From Planosporangium thailandense (lineage in GTDB: Bacteria > Actinomycetota > Actinomycetes > Mycobacteriales > Micromonosporaceae), in the NCBI RefSeq assembly GCF_011947195.1, contig NZ_JAATVY010000017.1:62001-126000 (forward strand): a DNA stretch of 64,000 nt, written 5' to 3'. A model generated the notes under the pieces. The model was not told where the DNA came from and ran no database searches. It was given only the letters and a program-made list of their open reading frames with translations. The number at the start of each line of letters is the position of its first letter. Positions within the stretch are counted from its first letter, which is position 1. Shown here piece by piece: positions 9,293 through 19,010 of this stretch. Made by a program: the position numbers and the translations under genes.

Positions 9293-9364
9293 ATGCATCG
9301 AAGCCAGCGCCTCATTCAGCGCCGCTTCGTCGACTACCAGCGGGTGTGCAGCAGCGCCTGTTGA
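9293..9364 (+). CDS. Putative cysteine-type leader peptide (23 aa)
   Basis: A 23-codon ORF starts MHRSQRLIQRR and ends VCSSAC followed by TGA. This layout, an Arg-rich start, then RRFVDYQRV and a terminal Cys-Ser-Ser-Ala-Cys, is that of the short leader peptides found upstream of sulfur-assimilation operons in Actinobacteria, where ribosome stalling at cysteine codons is thought to couple expression to cysteine supply. It lies about 270 bp upstream of the sulfonate transporter genes. AT-rich sequence at 9207-9237 (CCTATAGGAATAATAGG) probably holds the promoter. The coupling mechanism here is inferred. Confidence 0.75.
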   Translation: MHRSQRLIQRRFVDYQRVCSSAC

Positions 9365-14205: not shown

Positions 14206-14777
14206 GCACACCGACCGTCGAGGTCGTCGAGCTGATCGGCAACCCGCGCGCGGGCTCCCGTACCCGCGCGTTCGCCGACGCCGTCACCGCCGAGCTGACG
14301 GGCCGCCTCGCGCGGGCCGGCAGCCCGTCGGGCCGACCCAGGGTGCTGGAGCTGGCCGAGATCGCCGCGGTCACGTTCGGGCCCCGACCTGCCCGGGCCG
14401 TCGCCCCGCTGGACGACCCGTTCGCGCCGGTACGCGAGGCCCGACTGCTGGTCGTCGCGACGCCCACGTACAAGGGTTCGTACACCGGCTTGTTGAAGGT
14501 CTTCCTGGACCAGTTCGGGCCGGGCGACCTGGCCGGCGCGGTGGCGGTGCCGGTCGCGGTGGCCGCGTCCCCCGCCCACCTGGCGGCGGTGACGACGGCC
14601 CTGCGTGACCTGCTGGTCGAGCTGGGTGCTGACGTGCCGGCCCATCCGCCGGCCGTACTGGAGTCGCGGCTCACCGCGCCCACCGAGGTGGCCGCCGAGT
14701 GGGCCGCCTGGCACGCCGGTGAGGTCACCGACCTGCTGCTGGGCCGCGAGACGGTACGCGCCACAGCCGCGATCTGA
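14202..14777 (+). CDS. NADPH-dependent FMN reductase, SsuE-like
   Basis: 191 residues. The flavodoxin-like fold is indicated by IGNPRAGSRTRAFADAV at the N-terminus (phosphate-binding loop) and ATPTYKGSYTGLLKVFLDQF, the classic NADPH-dependent FMN reductase motif also found in SsuE. Together with the split-barrel reductase this operon has two unrelated flavin reductases for a single visible monooxygenase; one may serve a monooxygenase encoded elsewhere. Last gene of the operon; a hairpin at 14783-14819 follows. Confidence 0.88.
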   Translation: MSTPTVEVVELIGNPRAGSRTRAFADAVTAELTGRLARAGSPSGRPRVLELAEIAAVTFGPRPARAVAPLDDPFAPVREARLLVVATPTYKGSYTGLLKVFLDQFGPGDLAGAVAVPVAVAASPAHLAAVTTALRDLLVELGADVPAHPPAVLESRLTAPTEVAAEWAAWHAGEVTDLLLGRETVRATAAI

Positions 14778-14782
14778 CGGAG

Positions 14783-14819
14783 GTCGGGCCGCGCCGAAGA
14801 TGCGCCGGCACGGCCCGAC
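14783..14819. terminator. Bidirectional hairpin between convergent genes
   Basis: GTCGGGCCG (14783-14791) pairs with CGGCCCGAC (14811-14819), a perfect 9-bp stem with further partial pairing inside. It lies between the stop of the FMN reductase (+) and the stop of the aminotransferase (-), where a shared terminator is expected. No U-tract follows, as is common in actinomycetes. Confidence 0.6.
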
Positions 14820-14823
14820 GTCC

Positions 14824-16089
14824 CTACGACACCGCCAGGTCGCGCAGCCCTGCGAGCAGCCGGTCGATGTGCTCGGCGGTGCTGCCGATGCCGATGCTCG
14901 CGCGTACCGCCCCGCCGGTCAGCGGCCGGCCCAGCCGGGCCGAGGCCTCGTCGAGCAGCCGGCGGGTCAGCGGGTGCGCGCAGAACAGGCCGTCGCGCAC
15001 GCCGATGCCGTACCTGCGGGCGAGATGGGTCGAGACGTCGGCGGCGGCCACGTCGGCGACGGCGAAGCTGACGATGCCGACCCGGTCGTGGTCGGCGGCG
15101 AAGGTCCGCAGCTCGGCGACGTGCGGCAGGCTGGCCAGCCCCGCGCGCAGCCGCGCCAGCAGCGCGTTCTCGTGCGCCGCGAGGGCGTCGCGGTCGGCGG
15201 CGGCGAGGTCCGCGCAGACCGCGGCGAGCGCGACCGCTCCCAGCAGGTTCGGGGTGCCGGCCTCGTGCCGGGCCGGCCCGACGTGCCAGTCCACGTCATT
15301 CGTGGCGTCCCCGACACGTGCGGTCGCCCCGCCGCCGGCCAGGTACGGCGGCGCGGCGTCGAGCCAGTCGGCCCGCCCCACGAGCACCCCGGCGCCGAAC
15401 GGGGCGTACAGCTTGTGCCCGGACAGCGCCAGGTAGTCCACACCCGACTCGGCGAGCGACACCGGCCGGTGCGGGGCGAGCTGCGCGGCATCCACCGCGA
15501 TCCGGGCACCGAACCGGTGCGCCAGCGCGGCCAGCTCCGCGACCGGCCACACCTCGCCGGTCACGTTCGACGCCCCGGTGACCGTCACCAGGACCGGCCC
15601 GTCGAGCTGGCCGAGGGCCGCGGCCAGCGCCCGGATGGCGGCGCCCGGCGAGTCCGGTACCGGCAGCCGGACCGCGCGCGGCCAGGGCAGCAGGTTGGCG
15701 TGGTGCTCGCCGGCCCAGCCGACCACGGTGGTGCCGGCCGGCAGGCAACCGGCCAGCAGGTTCAGCGCGTCGGTGGTGTTGCGGGTGAATACCACGTGGT
15801 CGTCCGCGCGGGCGCCGACGAAGTCGGCGATGGTCTGGCGGGCCCGCTCGTAGGCCAGGGTGCAGCGCTGGGAGGCCGCGCCGGCGCCCCGGTGCACGCT
15901 GGCGTACCACGGCAGCAGCTCGTTGACCGCGCCCGCCGCCGACGCCAGGCACGGCGCGGTCGCGGCGTAGTCGAGGTTGACGTGGTCGACGGTACGGCCG
16001 TCGGCGAGCGTGACCGGCAACGCGTCGCCCAGCACGACCGGGACGGTCCGCGCTCCGTGTACGTCGGGGCATGCGTATGTGACAGTCAC
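14824..16089 (-). CDS. Class V aminotransferase, cysteine desulfurase-like
   Basis: 421 residues from GTG 16087-16089, with GGAGGG upstream. Fold-type I PLP landmarks: NLDYAATAPCLASA at the N-terminus, HRGAGAASQRCTLAYERAR, FTRNTTDALNLLA, ITVDAAQ-type strand (IAVDAAQLAPH) and the PLP lysine in ALSGHKLYAPFGAGVL. This is the NifS/Csd arrangement. A discrete active-site cysteine loop is not obvious, so desulfurase activity is not certain; a cysteine/cystine lyase or another beta-elimination is possible. Control by the SAM-IV riboswitch in its 5' leader ties it to methionine/sulfur status, consistent with the convergent sulfonate operon. Confidence 0.8.
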   Translation of the reverse strand: MTVTYACPDVHGARTVPVVLGDALPVTLADGRTVDHVNLDYAATAPCLASAAGAVNELLPWYASVHRGAGAASQRCTLAYERARQTIADFVGARADDHVVFTRNTTDALNLLAGCLPAGTTVVGWAGEHHANLLPWPRAVRLPVPDSPGAAIRALAAALGQLDGPVLVTVTGASNVTGEVWPVAELAALAHRFGARIAVDAAQLAPHRPVSLAESGVDYLALSGHKLYAPFGAGVLVGRADWLDAAPPYLAGGGATARVGDATNDVDWHVGPARHEAGTPNLLGAVALAAVCADLAAADRDALAAHENALLARLRAGLASLPHVAELRTFAADHDRVGIVSFAVADVAAADVSTHLARRYGIGVRDGLFCAHPLTRRLLDEASARLGRPLTGGAVRASIGIGSTAEHIDRLLAGLRDLAVS

Positions 16090-16108
16090 CGTGGAATCCC
16101 TCCGGTAG

Positions 16109-16126
16109 GGACCCCGCAGGGGGTCC
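16109..16126 (-). promoter_or_regulatory. Hairpin between riboswitch and start codon
   Basis: GGACCCC-GCAG-GGGGTCC, a perfect 7-bp stem, lies between the SAM-IV aptamer and the GGAGGG ribosome site at about 16098-16103. It is well placed to be part of the expression platform, either as an intrinsic terminator or by controlling access to the ribosome site. Which one is not decidable by eye. Confidence 0.45.
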
Positions 16127-16149
16127 GCGCTTGCCCGGGCGCGGACGCG

Positions 16150-16240
16150 CGCGGGCCTGGTCCTCACCCGGGGCACCCCACCGCGAACTACGAGGGTTGC
16201 CGGCCAGCAAGCCGGGGCTTGACGCTGGCGCTCGTGACCT
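16150..16240 (-). ncRNA. SAM-IV riboswitch
   Basis: On the minus strand the leader reads GGTCACGAGCGCCAGC, then CAAGCCCCGGCTTGCTGG, CCGGCAACCCTC and, at the 3' side, GTGGGGTGCCCCGGGTGA closing with GGACCAGG. GGTCACGAG pairs across to the GTGAGGACC end. This succession is that of SAM-IV aptamers, an actinobacterial class sharing the SAM-I binding core but with different peripheral helices. It lies 60-150 bp upstream of the class V aminotransferase. High SAM would be expected to switch the gene off. Confidence 0.9.
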
Positions 16241-16367
16241 GTGAAGTGATCTTACAACGTACGGGCGGCGGCACCGCGTACCCGGGGCATATGTGGGTAG
16301 CGTGACGTTCGTCGCGGCCCCGGTACGCTCCCGGGCCGGCGCGACCCGCACCATGAGGAGTGGCCTC

Positions 16368-16727
16368 ATGCCGATCTTCTCGCCGGAAGCGCTCGATGAC
16401 GTCGTCGACGCCCGCCACCACGAGCGGATGCGCGAATCGCTGCGCCCGCTGTTGACCCCGGAACTGATCTCCGAACACGCGCGGCAACCGTTCGGGCAGC
16501 ACAGCGACGCACTGCAGCGGGTTCTCAACTACCTCGGGCGCTTCCCCGTCCCGGGCAAGCTGATCTGCGAGTACGGCGGCGACGAGAACTGGTTCGTCTG
16601 CCGGCTGGTCGACGACGCAGGCCTGCGCGCCGCGCGCGTGGCGGGCCCCTTCCCCACCGAGGCGGCGGCGATCGACGCGGTCTTCCGCCAGCGCCTGCAC
16701 GAGATCTTCGGAGTGGCGACCGGTTGA
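16368..16727 (+). CDS. N,N-dimethylformamidase small (alpha) subunit-like protein
   Basis: 119 residues from ATG 16368, with GAGGAG upstream. The product has the layout of the small subunit of two-component dimethylformamidase: an N-terminal helical ERMRESLRPLLTPELISEH, the pivot QPFGQHSDALQRVLNYLGR, and a C-terminal TEAAAIDAVFRQRLHEI. Known small subunits are about 130 residues. The gene is 33 bp upstream of a large-subunit homologue, the order seen for known enzymes. Alone it would be called hypothetical; context carries much of the weight. Confidence 0.65.
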   Translation: MPIFSPEALDDVVDARHHERMRESLRPLLTPELISEHARQPFGQHSDALQRVLNYLGRFPVPGKLICEYGGDENWFVCRLVDDAGLRAARVAGPFPTEAAAIDAVFRQRLHEIFGVATG

Positions 16728-16760
16728 CCGCCTCGTGGGCCGCGCCGGCGGTGAGACGAA

Positions 16761-19010
16761 ATGGAGCAGAGCGTGCGCTTCCCGACGTGGGTCCTCGGTT
16801 ACTCCGACGAGTTCAGCGTGGCGCCCGGCGAGCGGCTGGCGTTCCACGTCAGCGGTCACGGGGCCGACACGGTGGAAGCGAAACTGGTCCGCCTCATCCA
16901 TGGCGACACCCATCCCGGTGGGCCGGGCTTCCGGGAGATCGAGGTGGACTCGGACGTCGACGGCGTCTATCCGCTGGTCGACCAGCCGGCACAGCACGGT
17001 TCCCACGCCCGGGTGCCCGGCGCCGGTGCCATCATGCCCGCGGCCGGCTCCTCCTTCGGCCTGTTCGCGTTCGTTCAGCCCACCGCCGACCTCGGTGTCG
17101 CGCCGGTCATCTCGGCCTGGGACGCCGCCATCGATGCCGGCGTCGCGCTCGTGCTGGAGCCGGGGCTTCGCCCAGCGCTGTGGCTCACCGCCGCCGGCAC
17201 GACCCACCGAATCGAGGCGGAGCGGCTGCGCGCCGGCATCTGGTACGCCCTGAGCGCCGGCTGGGACGCCGGCTCCGGTCGTGCCCGCGTCGACGCCACC
17301 CCGGTCGTCAACCCGTACAACAGCCAGGTCGGCCGGCTGGTGGCGGCCCCGTCGGCCCACGCGGCGGGCGCCGTGCCGCCCTGGGGGCCGCTGCCGACCG
17401 TCGACCTGCTCCTCGGCGCCGTCGACGCGAGCGACGGCCGCGTGGTCCGCGGCACCTTCAACGGCAAGATCTCGTTGCCCGCCGTCTACGACCGGGCGCT
17501 CGACGAGCACGACCACGAACGGCTGGCGGCGAGCGCCAGCACGCCGTCGGTGACCGAGGGCCTTCGCGCGTGGTGGGATCTGAGCGAGGGCATCGAGACC
17601 ACCGCGGTGGTGGGCGGTGGCAACGCCCCGCCGGGTCGACTGGTCAACCTGCCGGTCCGCGCGGTCACCGCGCACAACTGGGACGGATCCTCGTACAACT
17701 GGCGGCACACCCCCGAGCTGTACGGCGCCGTGCATTTCCACGCCGACGACGTGGAGGACACGGGGTGGGCGGAGACCTGCGCGCTCACGGTGCCGCCCGA
17801 CCTCCGCTCCGGCCTGTACGCCCTCAGGCTGCGGGCCGGCGGATACGAAGACCACGTCCCGTTCGCGGTGCGCGCCGTCCCCGGCCGGGAAAGCGACATC
17901 GCCCTGGTGCTGCCCAGTGCGAGCTACCTGGCGTACGCCAACGAACACCTGGCCACCGGATCGGCGGTGGCGCAGGCCGTCTGCGGCCACACGCTGACGC
18001 TGCAGCCGCTGGACCTGCTCCTGATGGAACATCCCGAGTTCGGGCGGTCCACCTACGACCTGCACGTCGATGGCAGCGGCGTCGCACTCACCTCGCGGCG
18101 CCGTCCGATCCTCAACATGCGGCCCAGGCACCGGTTCAGCTATCTGGGGACCTGGCAGCTTCCCGCCGACCTGTACATCGTGGACTGGCTGGAGCACATG
18201 GGTTACGGGTACGACGTGCTGACCGACGAGGAGGTGCACAAGCACGGTCACGACGCCCTGCGTCCGTACCGGGTGGTGCTGACGGGAACCCATCCGGAGT
18301 ACGCGAGCGAGCCGATGCTGGACGCCTACGAGGATTACATCGGCCGCGGCGGCAGAGTGATGTACCTGGGCGCCAACGGGTTCTACTGGGTGGTCTCCTT
18401 CCACGCGGAGTTGCCGTACGTCATGGAGGTCCGCAAGGGCGAGGCGGGCTCCCGGGCCTGGCAGGCCGCCCCCGGCGAGACGCTGCACAGCACGACGGGC
18501 GAGAAGGGCGGCCTGTGGCGCAACCGGGGGCGGGCGCCGCAGAAGCTCGTCGGCACCGGCTTCACCGCGGAGGGCTTCAACGCCTCCTCCCCCTACCGCC
18601 GGATGCCCGACAGCCGCGACGACCGGGTGTCATGGATCTTCGACGGGGTCGGGGCGGACGAGCTGATCGGCGACTTCGGGCTGGTCGGGGGCGGCGCGGC
18701 GGGACAGGAGCTGGACCGGGCCGACCTCGGCCTCGGCACCCCGCCCGGGACGTACCTGCTGGCCAGCTCGGAGCGCCACGACGACTCGTACCTGCTCGTC
18801 GTCGAGGACATCGCCTTCATGTACCGGGGTCTCGGCGGCACCGAGCACCGCGACGTCCGCGCCGACCTGACGTACTACGAGTCCCCCGGCGGCGGGGCGG
18901 TCTTCTCGACCTCGTCCATCGCCTGGTCCGGGAGCCTCTCGCACAACGACTACGACAACAACGTCTCGCGGGTGACGGCGAACGTCCTGAACCGGTTCCT
19001 CTCGTCCTGA
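16761..19010 (+). CDS. N,N-dimethylformamidase large (beta) subunit-like amidohydrolase
   Basis: 749 residues, close to the roughly 760 of characterised large subunits. An N-terminal jelly-roll/concanavalin-like part (WVLGYSDEFSVAPGERL, then FNGKISLPAVYDRAL) is followed by a glutamine-amidotransferase-like catalytic domain. Residues that appear to match the mononuclear iron centre of dimethylformamidase are kept: a tyrosine in SYLAYANEH (about 392), Tyr432 in STYDLHVDGSG, and His511/Glu513 in GTHPEYASEP. Such enzymes hydrolyse formamides without cofactors other than iron. The real substrate may be another small amide. Probably cytoplasmic; no signal peptide. Confidence 0.8.
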   Translation: MEQSVRFPTWVLGYSDEFSVAPGERLAFHVSGHGADTVEAKLVRLIHGDTHPGGPGFREIEVDSDVDGVYPLVDQPAQHGSHARVPGAGAIMPAAGSSFGLFAFVQPTADLGVAPVISAWDAAIDAGVALVLEPGLRPALWLTAAGTTHRIEAERLRAGIWYALSAGWDAGSGRARVDATPVVNPYNSQVGRLVAAPSAHAAGAVPPWGPLPTVDLLLGAVDASDGRVVRGTFNGKISLPAVYDRALDEHDHERLAASASTPSVTEGLRAWWDLSEGIETTAVVGGGNAPPGRLVNLPVRAVTAHNWDGSSYNWRHTPELYGAVHFHADDVEDTGWAETCALTVPPDLRSGLYALRLRAGGYEDHVPFAVRAVPGRESDIALVLPSASYLAYANEHLATGSAVAQAVCGHTLTLQPLDLLLMEHPEFGRSTYDLHVDGSGVALTSRRRPILNMRPRHRFSYLGTWQLPADLYIVDWLEHMGYGYDVLTDEEVHKHGHDALRPYRVVLTGTHPEYASEPMLDAYEDYIGRGGRVMYLGANGFYWVVSFHAELPYVMEVRKGEAGSRAWQAAPGETLHSTTGEKGGLWRNRGRAPQKLVGTGFTAEGFNASSPYRRMPDSRDDRVSWIFDGVGADELIGDFGLVGGGAAGQELDRADLGLGTPPGTYLLASSERHDDSYLLVVEDIAFMYRGLGGTEHRDVRADLTYYESPGGGAVFSTSSIAWSGSLSHNDYDNNVSRVTANVLNRFLSS

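Follow-up and report, generated by a model that had tools for sequence, protein, structure and literature searches.

The SAM-IV riboswitch carried by the window, as we call the whole 64,000-nucleotide stretch of Planosporangium thailandense DNA analysed here, is an ordinary member of its class placed on the commonest target of that class in the genomes searched, a gene for a SufS-type PLP enzyme. We consider it probable that this element acts as a translational off-switch on an accessory desulfurase-type enzyme, which would supply sulfur when SAM is low. What makes the result valuable is the model of the expression platform together with the uncharacterised enzyme clade, rather than the pairing as such. 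The co-evolving helices A, B and C described below make a concrete model open to test. The association of SAM-IV with a single desulfurase-like clade is widespread and points to a step that many actinobacteria share in their sulfur metabolism. The coordinates of the features are collected in Table 1.

Table 1. Features of the riboswitch, its platform and the controlled gene in the window, and the short ORF of the Streptomyces variant.
Feature	Position	Strand	Basis
SAM-IV riboswitch aptamer (RF00634)	16122..16239	-	cmscan 100.4 bits, full-length match
PK-1: CCCGG 16216..16212 (P2 loop) with CCGGG 16171..16167	16167..16216	-	read from sequence
PK-2 5′ strand UUCGCG, P3 loop	16182..16187	-	sequence; topology from PMC6890682 (excerpt)
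PK-2 3′ strand CGCGGA	16124..16129	-	pairs with 16187..16182 (six pairs, including one G-U)
Proposed anti-sequestor hairpin A:B, GGACCCC-CUGC-GGGGUCC, 7 bp	16109..16126	-	fold prediction and leader comparison
Proposed sequestor hairpin B:C, GGGGUCCCU with AGGGAUUCC, 9 pairs including two G-U	16093..16115	-	fold with PK-2 strand absent or blocked
Shine-Dalgarno GGAGGG; 9 nt from GGAGG to GTG	16098..16103	-	sequence
SufS-type class V PLP enzyme gene, 421 aa, proposed start GTG 16089	14824..16089	-	ORF, profile and structure matches
Six-codon ORF, example	L172:7804-7824; also loci L183-L212		pattern match

When the whole window was scanned with cmscan, SAM-IV (RF00634) was the sole match above the gathering score. 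This match covers model positions 1-116 of 116 and exceeds the gathering score of 38 bits by a wide margin (100.4 bits); its E value of 3.1e-17 rules out a chance match. Both pseudoknots of the class have complementary strands at the expected places, if the topology is taken from the excerpt of PMC6890682, which puts a PK-1 strand at C24-G28. The initial annotation had proposed a full SAM-IV aptamer at this place, and at the level of sequence this is confirmed, SAM binding itself being a prediction. When the 170-nt leader was folded freely, the SAM-IV fold was not recovered and the stability equalled that of dinucleotide shuffles (z = 0.02); the aptamer is therefore supported by the covariance model and by conservation, and not by folding energy. 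A model built from 34 sequences, the window itself among them, scores the window aptamer at 109.8 bits; at E ≤ 1 the same model gave four chance-level matches of 13.5-15.4 bits in the window and in locus L089. Compared with the SAM-IV riboswitch as described in the excerpt of PMC6890682, the element shares the full aptamer above the gathering score and the strands of PK-1 and PK-2, and no difference was found in the aptamer; the A/B/C platform reported here comes from comparison, not from a paper.

The aptamer lies 5′ of a gene on the same strand, which we call sulfur-metabolism-type on the basis of its family, with 32 nt between the aptamer end (16122) and the GTG at 16089. This gene had been described as cysteine desulfurase-like, and the description holds: its product, P0001, matches Pfam Aminotran_5 (E = 1.8e-77), the SufS model TIGR01979 (E = 7.2e-77) and the SufS of M. 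tuberculosis (E = 2.3e-50). The score against TIGR01979, 258.9 bits, is below the NCBIfam cut-off of 475.1, and a canonical SufS scoring 594.2 bits, above that cut-off, is found on another contig (C71) of the same genome. P0001 was therefore ruled out as the SufS of this genome and is regarded as an accessory enzyme. The predicted structure (pLDDT 86.7) finds its best matches in the M. smegmatis cargo desulfurase and in SufS chains, with TM 0.77-0.82 by query length and 28-36% identity among the 50 chains listed, and the nearest solved structures are cysteine desulfurases.

With the type II desulfurases SufS and CsdA (TIGR01979; 9ddd, 8kg1, 1jf9) P0001 shares the fold, the PLP lysine, and the His, Asp, Gln, Cys and two Arg. 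Residues H129, D200, Q203, K226, R365, C370 and R396 are the same in all 107 family members, in which the active-site set of type II cysteine desulfurases (PLP Lys, catalytic Cys, His and the two Arg) is thus in place; the roles of the individual catalytic and substrate-binding residues are those which we take over from E. coli SufS. On the other hand, P0001 differs from SufS/CsdA not only in its low identity and in its score under the SufS cut-off. The loop before the cysteine reads mostly G-x-F-C(-A-H) in the P0001 family and G-H-H-C-A in five SufS controls, and the family has an insert between the Cys and the following Arg which is missing from these controls (five of ten SufS-like controls were used, since the longest open stretch gave the wrong frame in the other five). 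Judging from these residues, P0001 is a SufS-type PLP enzyme with an intact desulfurase active site, and not SufS itself; desulfurase activity is predicted. Matches to P0001 were also found in two plasmid records, with no annotated gene under the match, and in 17 phage records, all below 60% identity and SufS-like.

The gene could also be a second SufS serving iron-sulfur clusters or thiamine, whose SAM control would merely reflect the SAM demand of other enzymes. The S. lividans authors do list the gene as a cysteine desulfurase under thiamine metabolism (PMC8079986, excerpt), but with the canonical SufS present elsewhere in the genome, a score so far under the SufS cut-off, and no suf, isc or thi product among the eight neighbouring proteins scanned around P0001, we hold this explanation to be highly improbable.

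The initial annotation had noted that SAM-IV precedes this enzyme instead of a standard methionine-pathway gene; that the pairing is special for this reason is not supported. Among the relatives searched, the P0001-type enzyme is the commonest SAM-IV target, with 26 of 61 sites among the matches listed, and the excerpts of two papers already report the pairing, SAM-IV lying upstream of a cysteine desulfurase gene in S. lividans (SLIV_26975, PMC8079986) and of a cysteine-desulfurase/class V PLP gene in S. clavuligerus (CRV15_21540, PMC8269248). In M. avium, according to the excerpt of PMC3774663, the same sensor also precedes a sulfur amino acid gene but a different enzyme, O-acetylhomoserine sulfhydrylase (MAV_4315).

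A covariance-model scan of 61 related genomes, the source genome counted, detected SAM-IV at 61 sites in 30 of them. Close relatives of P0001, defined by a best segment above 250 bits in the protein scan with the pieces of one gene counted once, occur in 27 of the 61 genomes (29 copies among the matches listed). SAM-IV is found immediately upstream of 26 of these 29 orthologous copies in the matches listed, 25 by called genes and one (G033) in which the gene is split over two frames; gene starts in the relatives come from a home-made gene caller. It is missing from the second copy of G018 and from the copies of G032 and G051. By genome, 26 of the 27 enzyme carriers have SAM-IV as against 4 of the 34 others, among the matches listed (Fisher p = 5.6e-12, kinship ignored). 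Neither SAM-IV nor the enzyme was found, among the matches listed, in the three other genomes of the source genus, one of which is 86% complete. The split gene of G033 (C1:4858525-4859669) is either a decaying copy or an assembly error.

Over a wider range, SAM-IV is upstream in 75 of 80 loci, these being the best 80 of 592 confirmed relatives in the named genome collection, and the 75 loci include the genera Micromonospora, Amycolatopsis, Nonomuraea, Kribbella, Actinomadura, Streptomyces and Kitasatospora. The remaining five are L111, which lies at a contig edge with only 127 nt upstream, L117, L118, L119 and L164. At ten control loci (L091-L100) SAM-IV was absent within about 350 nt beside each gene. 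For the genus of S. albus, 59 of the 61 genomes drawn have SAM-IV, and the enzyme is directly behind it in all 30 loci fetched. The SAM-IV/enzyme pairing is common in actinobacteria, and for Streptomyces it is already published.

Other SAM-IV targets in the relatives are MetY, MetX, monooxygenases, an NlpA-type lipoprotein and, in G056, a rhodanese paired with a Cys/Met-metabolism PLP enzyme; this range of targets fits SAM feedback on sulfur supply. The idea that the enzyme is simply tied to MetY was rejected, since MetY is over its cut-off in 23 of 61 genomes, enzyme carriers and non-carriers alike; the source genome has no MetY over the cut-off. Across genomes the neighbourhoods of the enzyme consist mostly of clade synteny with unrelated genes and little is conserved beyond this, so that the role of the enzyme rests on its regulation, its active site and a few loci.

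Some of these loci belong to the source genome (7.0 Mb in 114 contigs), which has three copies of SAM-IV. The window copy is convergent with an operon encoding an SsuA/SsuC/SsuB-like transporter, an NtaA/DmoA-family monooxygenase and two flavin reductases. The second copy precedes an enzyme 87% identical to P0001. Downstream of this enzyme gene, and in the same orientation, come genes for a TIGR04028 binding protein, two permeases, an ATPase and a TIGR04027 monooxygenase; the two family models assign no function, and we would ascribe to this cluster a role in sulfur metabolism. The third copy (contig C55, L034:7796-7972) precedes a stub of the enzyme, 58 residues long and then closed by a stop, which is identical to the second copy at 33 of 59 positions. 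Oligopeptide-type ABC transporter genes follow behind the stub (two of the four genes scanned), and in divergent orientation to the locus there is a gene that scores above the cut-off for SfnB, a sulfur-acquisition family. This third SAM-IV is a riboswitch left before a new operon after its enzyme copy decayed. That the riboswitch of the window itself has decayed and no longer regulates, for which the stub could serve as a precedent, seems barely credible: the aptamer is full-length and scores 100 bits, the strands of PK-1 and PK-2 are present, as are the two platform hairpins, and the gene is open.

Two further observations were made in the window. Upstream of the sulfonate-type operon, at 9293-9364 on the plus strand, there is a 23-residue ORF, MHRSQRLIQRRFVDYQRVCSSAC, which resembles the cysteine-containing leader peptides of actinobacterial sulfur genes. 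A divergent gene pair occupies 16368-19010 of the plus strand; its larger member (16761-19010) matches the N,N-dimethylformamidase beta-subunit domain DMFA2_C, and the smaller one has no Pfam or NCBIfam match.

The sulfur-acquisition families near the copies of the source genome, together with the regulation, make it likely that the enzyme is linked to SAM- and methionine-related sulfur flow, the reaction being a prediction. These neighbourhoods could also be read in terms of a C-S lyase or similar enzyme, made at sulfur shortage and acting on a scavenged compound such as a cysteine S-conjugate or cystine. Such an activity would suit both the SsuABC-like/NtaA-DmoA-family operon convergent with the window copy and the TIGR04028/TIGR04027 transporter-monooxygenase cluster behind the second one, as well as the altered loop and the insert before the Arg. 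However, a plain lyase would not need the type II desulfurase cysteine and substrate-binding residues that are invariant throughout the family, and we regard this alternative as possible, though less probable.

As for the expression platform, the 7-bp hairpin singled out by the initial annotation (A:B in Table 1) is real and is present in the minimum-energy fold of 16128..16070. It does not, however, lie between the aptamer and the ribosome site: its left arm opens with GGA (16126..16124), the three bases that close the PK-2 3′ strand, and the hairpin therefore overlaps the aptamer. Its proposed function as expression platform survives in a modified form, as one of two alternative hairpins whose co-evolution is indicated by swap tests, with mixed energy calculations. 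The second hairpin, B:C, covers part of the Shine-Dalgarno sequence, and the right arm of A:B is its alternative partner. Stretches of 59 and 70 nt starting at or near PK-2 fold to A:B; when the PK-2 strand is absent or blocked, the predicted fold is B:C, containing the Shine-Dalgarno. Blocking the PK-2 strand in the window raises the opening cost of GGAGG by 1.76 kcal/mol. A longer piece starting in P5 gives a third predicted fold, and a 70-nt piece also folded into a third form, in which the Shine-Dalgarno is covered too.

The leaders of the enzyme genes have three recurring segments: A, consisting of the PK-2 3′ strand and the following bases, B, typically GGGGUCC, and C, at or just before the Shine-Dalgarno. 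The leader set comprises 99 sequences, duplicates included (L162, where no gene was called, was dropped); the linker is long in 85 and short (7-14 nt) in 6, the Shine-Dalgarno is within 6 nt of PK-2 or overlaps it in another 6, and 2 were not parsed. Four of the 99, two of them apparently from the same strain, have no A/B/C linker and a Shine-Dalgarno overlapping the PK-2 strand; here PK-2 would hide the Shine-Dalgarno directly and reach the same polarity by a shorter way.

After one leader with a 90-nt linker had been left out, the 84 long leaders were thinned to 58. Helix A:B is paired in 94.4% of the 393 cells of this set, with changes on both sides in 12 cells, while slid registers reach at most 68.1%. 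In three of five measures none of 500 shuffles paired as highly; in the other two, 72 and 100 of 500 did. A partner-swap test gave native mean energies for both A:B and B:C that beat all 5000 permutations, whereas the control A:C, which the model does not use, was unaffected by the swap (2450 of 5000 as low). The result persists in subsets of 57, 45, 18 and 12 leaders (A:C: 2669, 2172, 1017 and 894 of 5000), the smallest of which has less than 65% identity; related leaders are not independent, though the result survives this thinning. Because the native partner ranks first, alone or jointly, in only 4 of 58 leaders for A:B and 1 of 58 for B:C, the gain sits in the mean and in variant leaders. 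These comparisons indicate that the A:B and B:C helices co-evolve over the 58 leaders; for a switch between two hairpins one would expect just this, a shared arm that co-evolves with both of its partners.

Energy-based support for the switch is mixed. Dinucleotide shuffles place A:B at p ≤ 0.05 in 26 of 58 leaders; for B:C, shuffling these short GC-rich linkers gave this value in only 1 of 58 and thus no support, and the partner-swap test was chosen after this B:C result had been seen. The effect of blocking PK-2 was calculated for 22 of the 25 enzyme leaders (in two of the others the Shine-Dalgarno falls within PK-2, and in one no start was parsed): the opening cost of the Shine-Dalgarno rose by at least 1.7 kcal/mol in 6, changed by less than 1 in 14 and fell by more than 1 in 2. 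In the swap test arm C ends at the Shine-Dalgarno, half of the window's own arm C lying beyond, and the B:C helix of the window is weak (-4.5) in this truncated form. Since the test misses part of this helix, we rate our main explanation slightly lower.

According to this explanation, when SAM is scarce the PK-2 3′ strand would be free or exchangeable and its GGA would join arm A; A would then pair with B, leaving the Shine-Dalgarno in arm C readable. When SAM is bound, the aptamer and PK-2 would hold CGCGGA and B would be released to pair with C, burying the Shine-Dalgarno. The enzyme made at SAM shortage would use cysteine or a close analogue as its sulfur source and form a persulfide in the active site; this sulfur would be passed, directly or as sulfide, towards homocysteine and methionine in a sulfur-scavenging response. 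SAM binding, the direction of the switch (SAM = off), the substrate and the sulfur acceptor are points that we infer. The literature searched, which did not cover the 2008 discovery paper, reportedly that of Weinberg et al., yielded no description of how the ligand state of SAM-IV is relayed to the ribosome. In the excerpts seen, PMC10907184 has SAM-IV only as a reference and PMC3890552 only in a table. In the cryo-EM study of the isolated aptamer, as excerpted, base pairing is unchanged by SAM and the apo model has PK-2 (PMC6890682), so that the exchange of PK-2 would have to depend on the competing platform.

In the genus of S. albus the arrangement varies: the platform extends as far as the Shine-Dalgarno of a six-codon ORF located between SAM-IV and the enzyme gene, whereas in the window it leads straight to the enzyme start. 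The ORF, with the consensus peptide MSKRMR, is present in all 30 loci fetched (27 exact and 3 variants, by eye). A single occurrence of the pattern RTGAGNMAGCGNATGCGNTAG is found in each of 45 of the 61 genomes, always 15-64 nt behind SAM-IV on the same strand, and the backward-read control gave no match. In the 27 exact loci, the 25 nt from the stop codon form a predicted short GC hairpin of -6.4 to -10.2 kcal/mol, calculated with no shuffle control. A literature search for the string MSKRMR gave no match, and PMC2965389, looked at for a uORF or leader peptide, has SAM-IV only as a reference in its excerpt. This organisation suggests that SAM may act on the translation of the short ORF and, by this means, on completion of the transcript, the evidence from S. 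clavuligerus being the premature transcripts reported in the excerpt of PMC8269248.

These data bear on whether the switch acts mainly on transcription, SAM causing premature termination, either intrinsic or Rho-dependent after loss of translation, with the hairpins at the ribosome site being secondary. The S. clavuligerus gene CRV15_21540 is among the most extreme read drops behind a premature transcript with SAM-IV (PMC8269248, excerpt), and because transcripts end prematurely at this place, transcript completion matters at least in that species; the six-codon ORF and the GC hairpin at its stop point the same way. In the window, however, a simple scan of 14700-16450 found no terminator-like site, the B:C hairpin lacks a U-run and instead includes the Shine-Dalgarno, and the first start behind the latter is that of the enzyme, not of a short ORF. 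For these reasons a mainly transcriptional switch appears unlikely. A more far-reaching version of our preferred translational switch would combine all elements: a dedicated, SAM-repressed actinobacterial desulfurase feeding cysteine-derived persulfide into homocysteine synthesis, by a route beside transsulfuration, under the control of a platform based on PK-2 strand exchange, which in Streptomyces would gate both a hexapeptide ORF and an attenuator. As a whole this proposal is speculative and rather unlikely to hold in every part.

Finally, SAM-IV also occurs in other settings. In six genomes (L040, L042, L046, L049, L053 and L058) it lies directly before genes that fall into two clusters, and the one member scanned of each cluster is a GNAT acetyltransferase; in five of these six loci the Shine-Dalgarno begins 7-16 nt from where the PK-2 strand starts, and the sixth is unparsed. 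Four SAM-IV elements lie within about 6 kb at L063:6600-12667, and behind some of the elements of L063 and L083 short ORFs with an RRHIDL-like stretch were recognised by eye.
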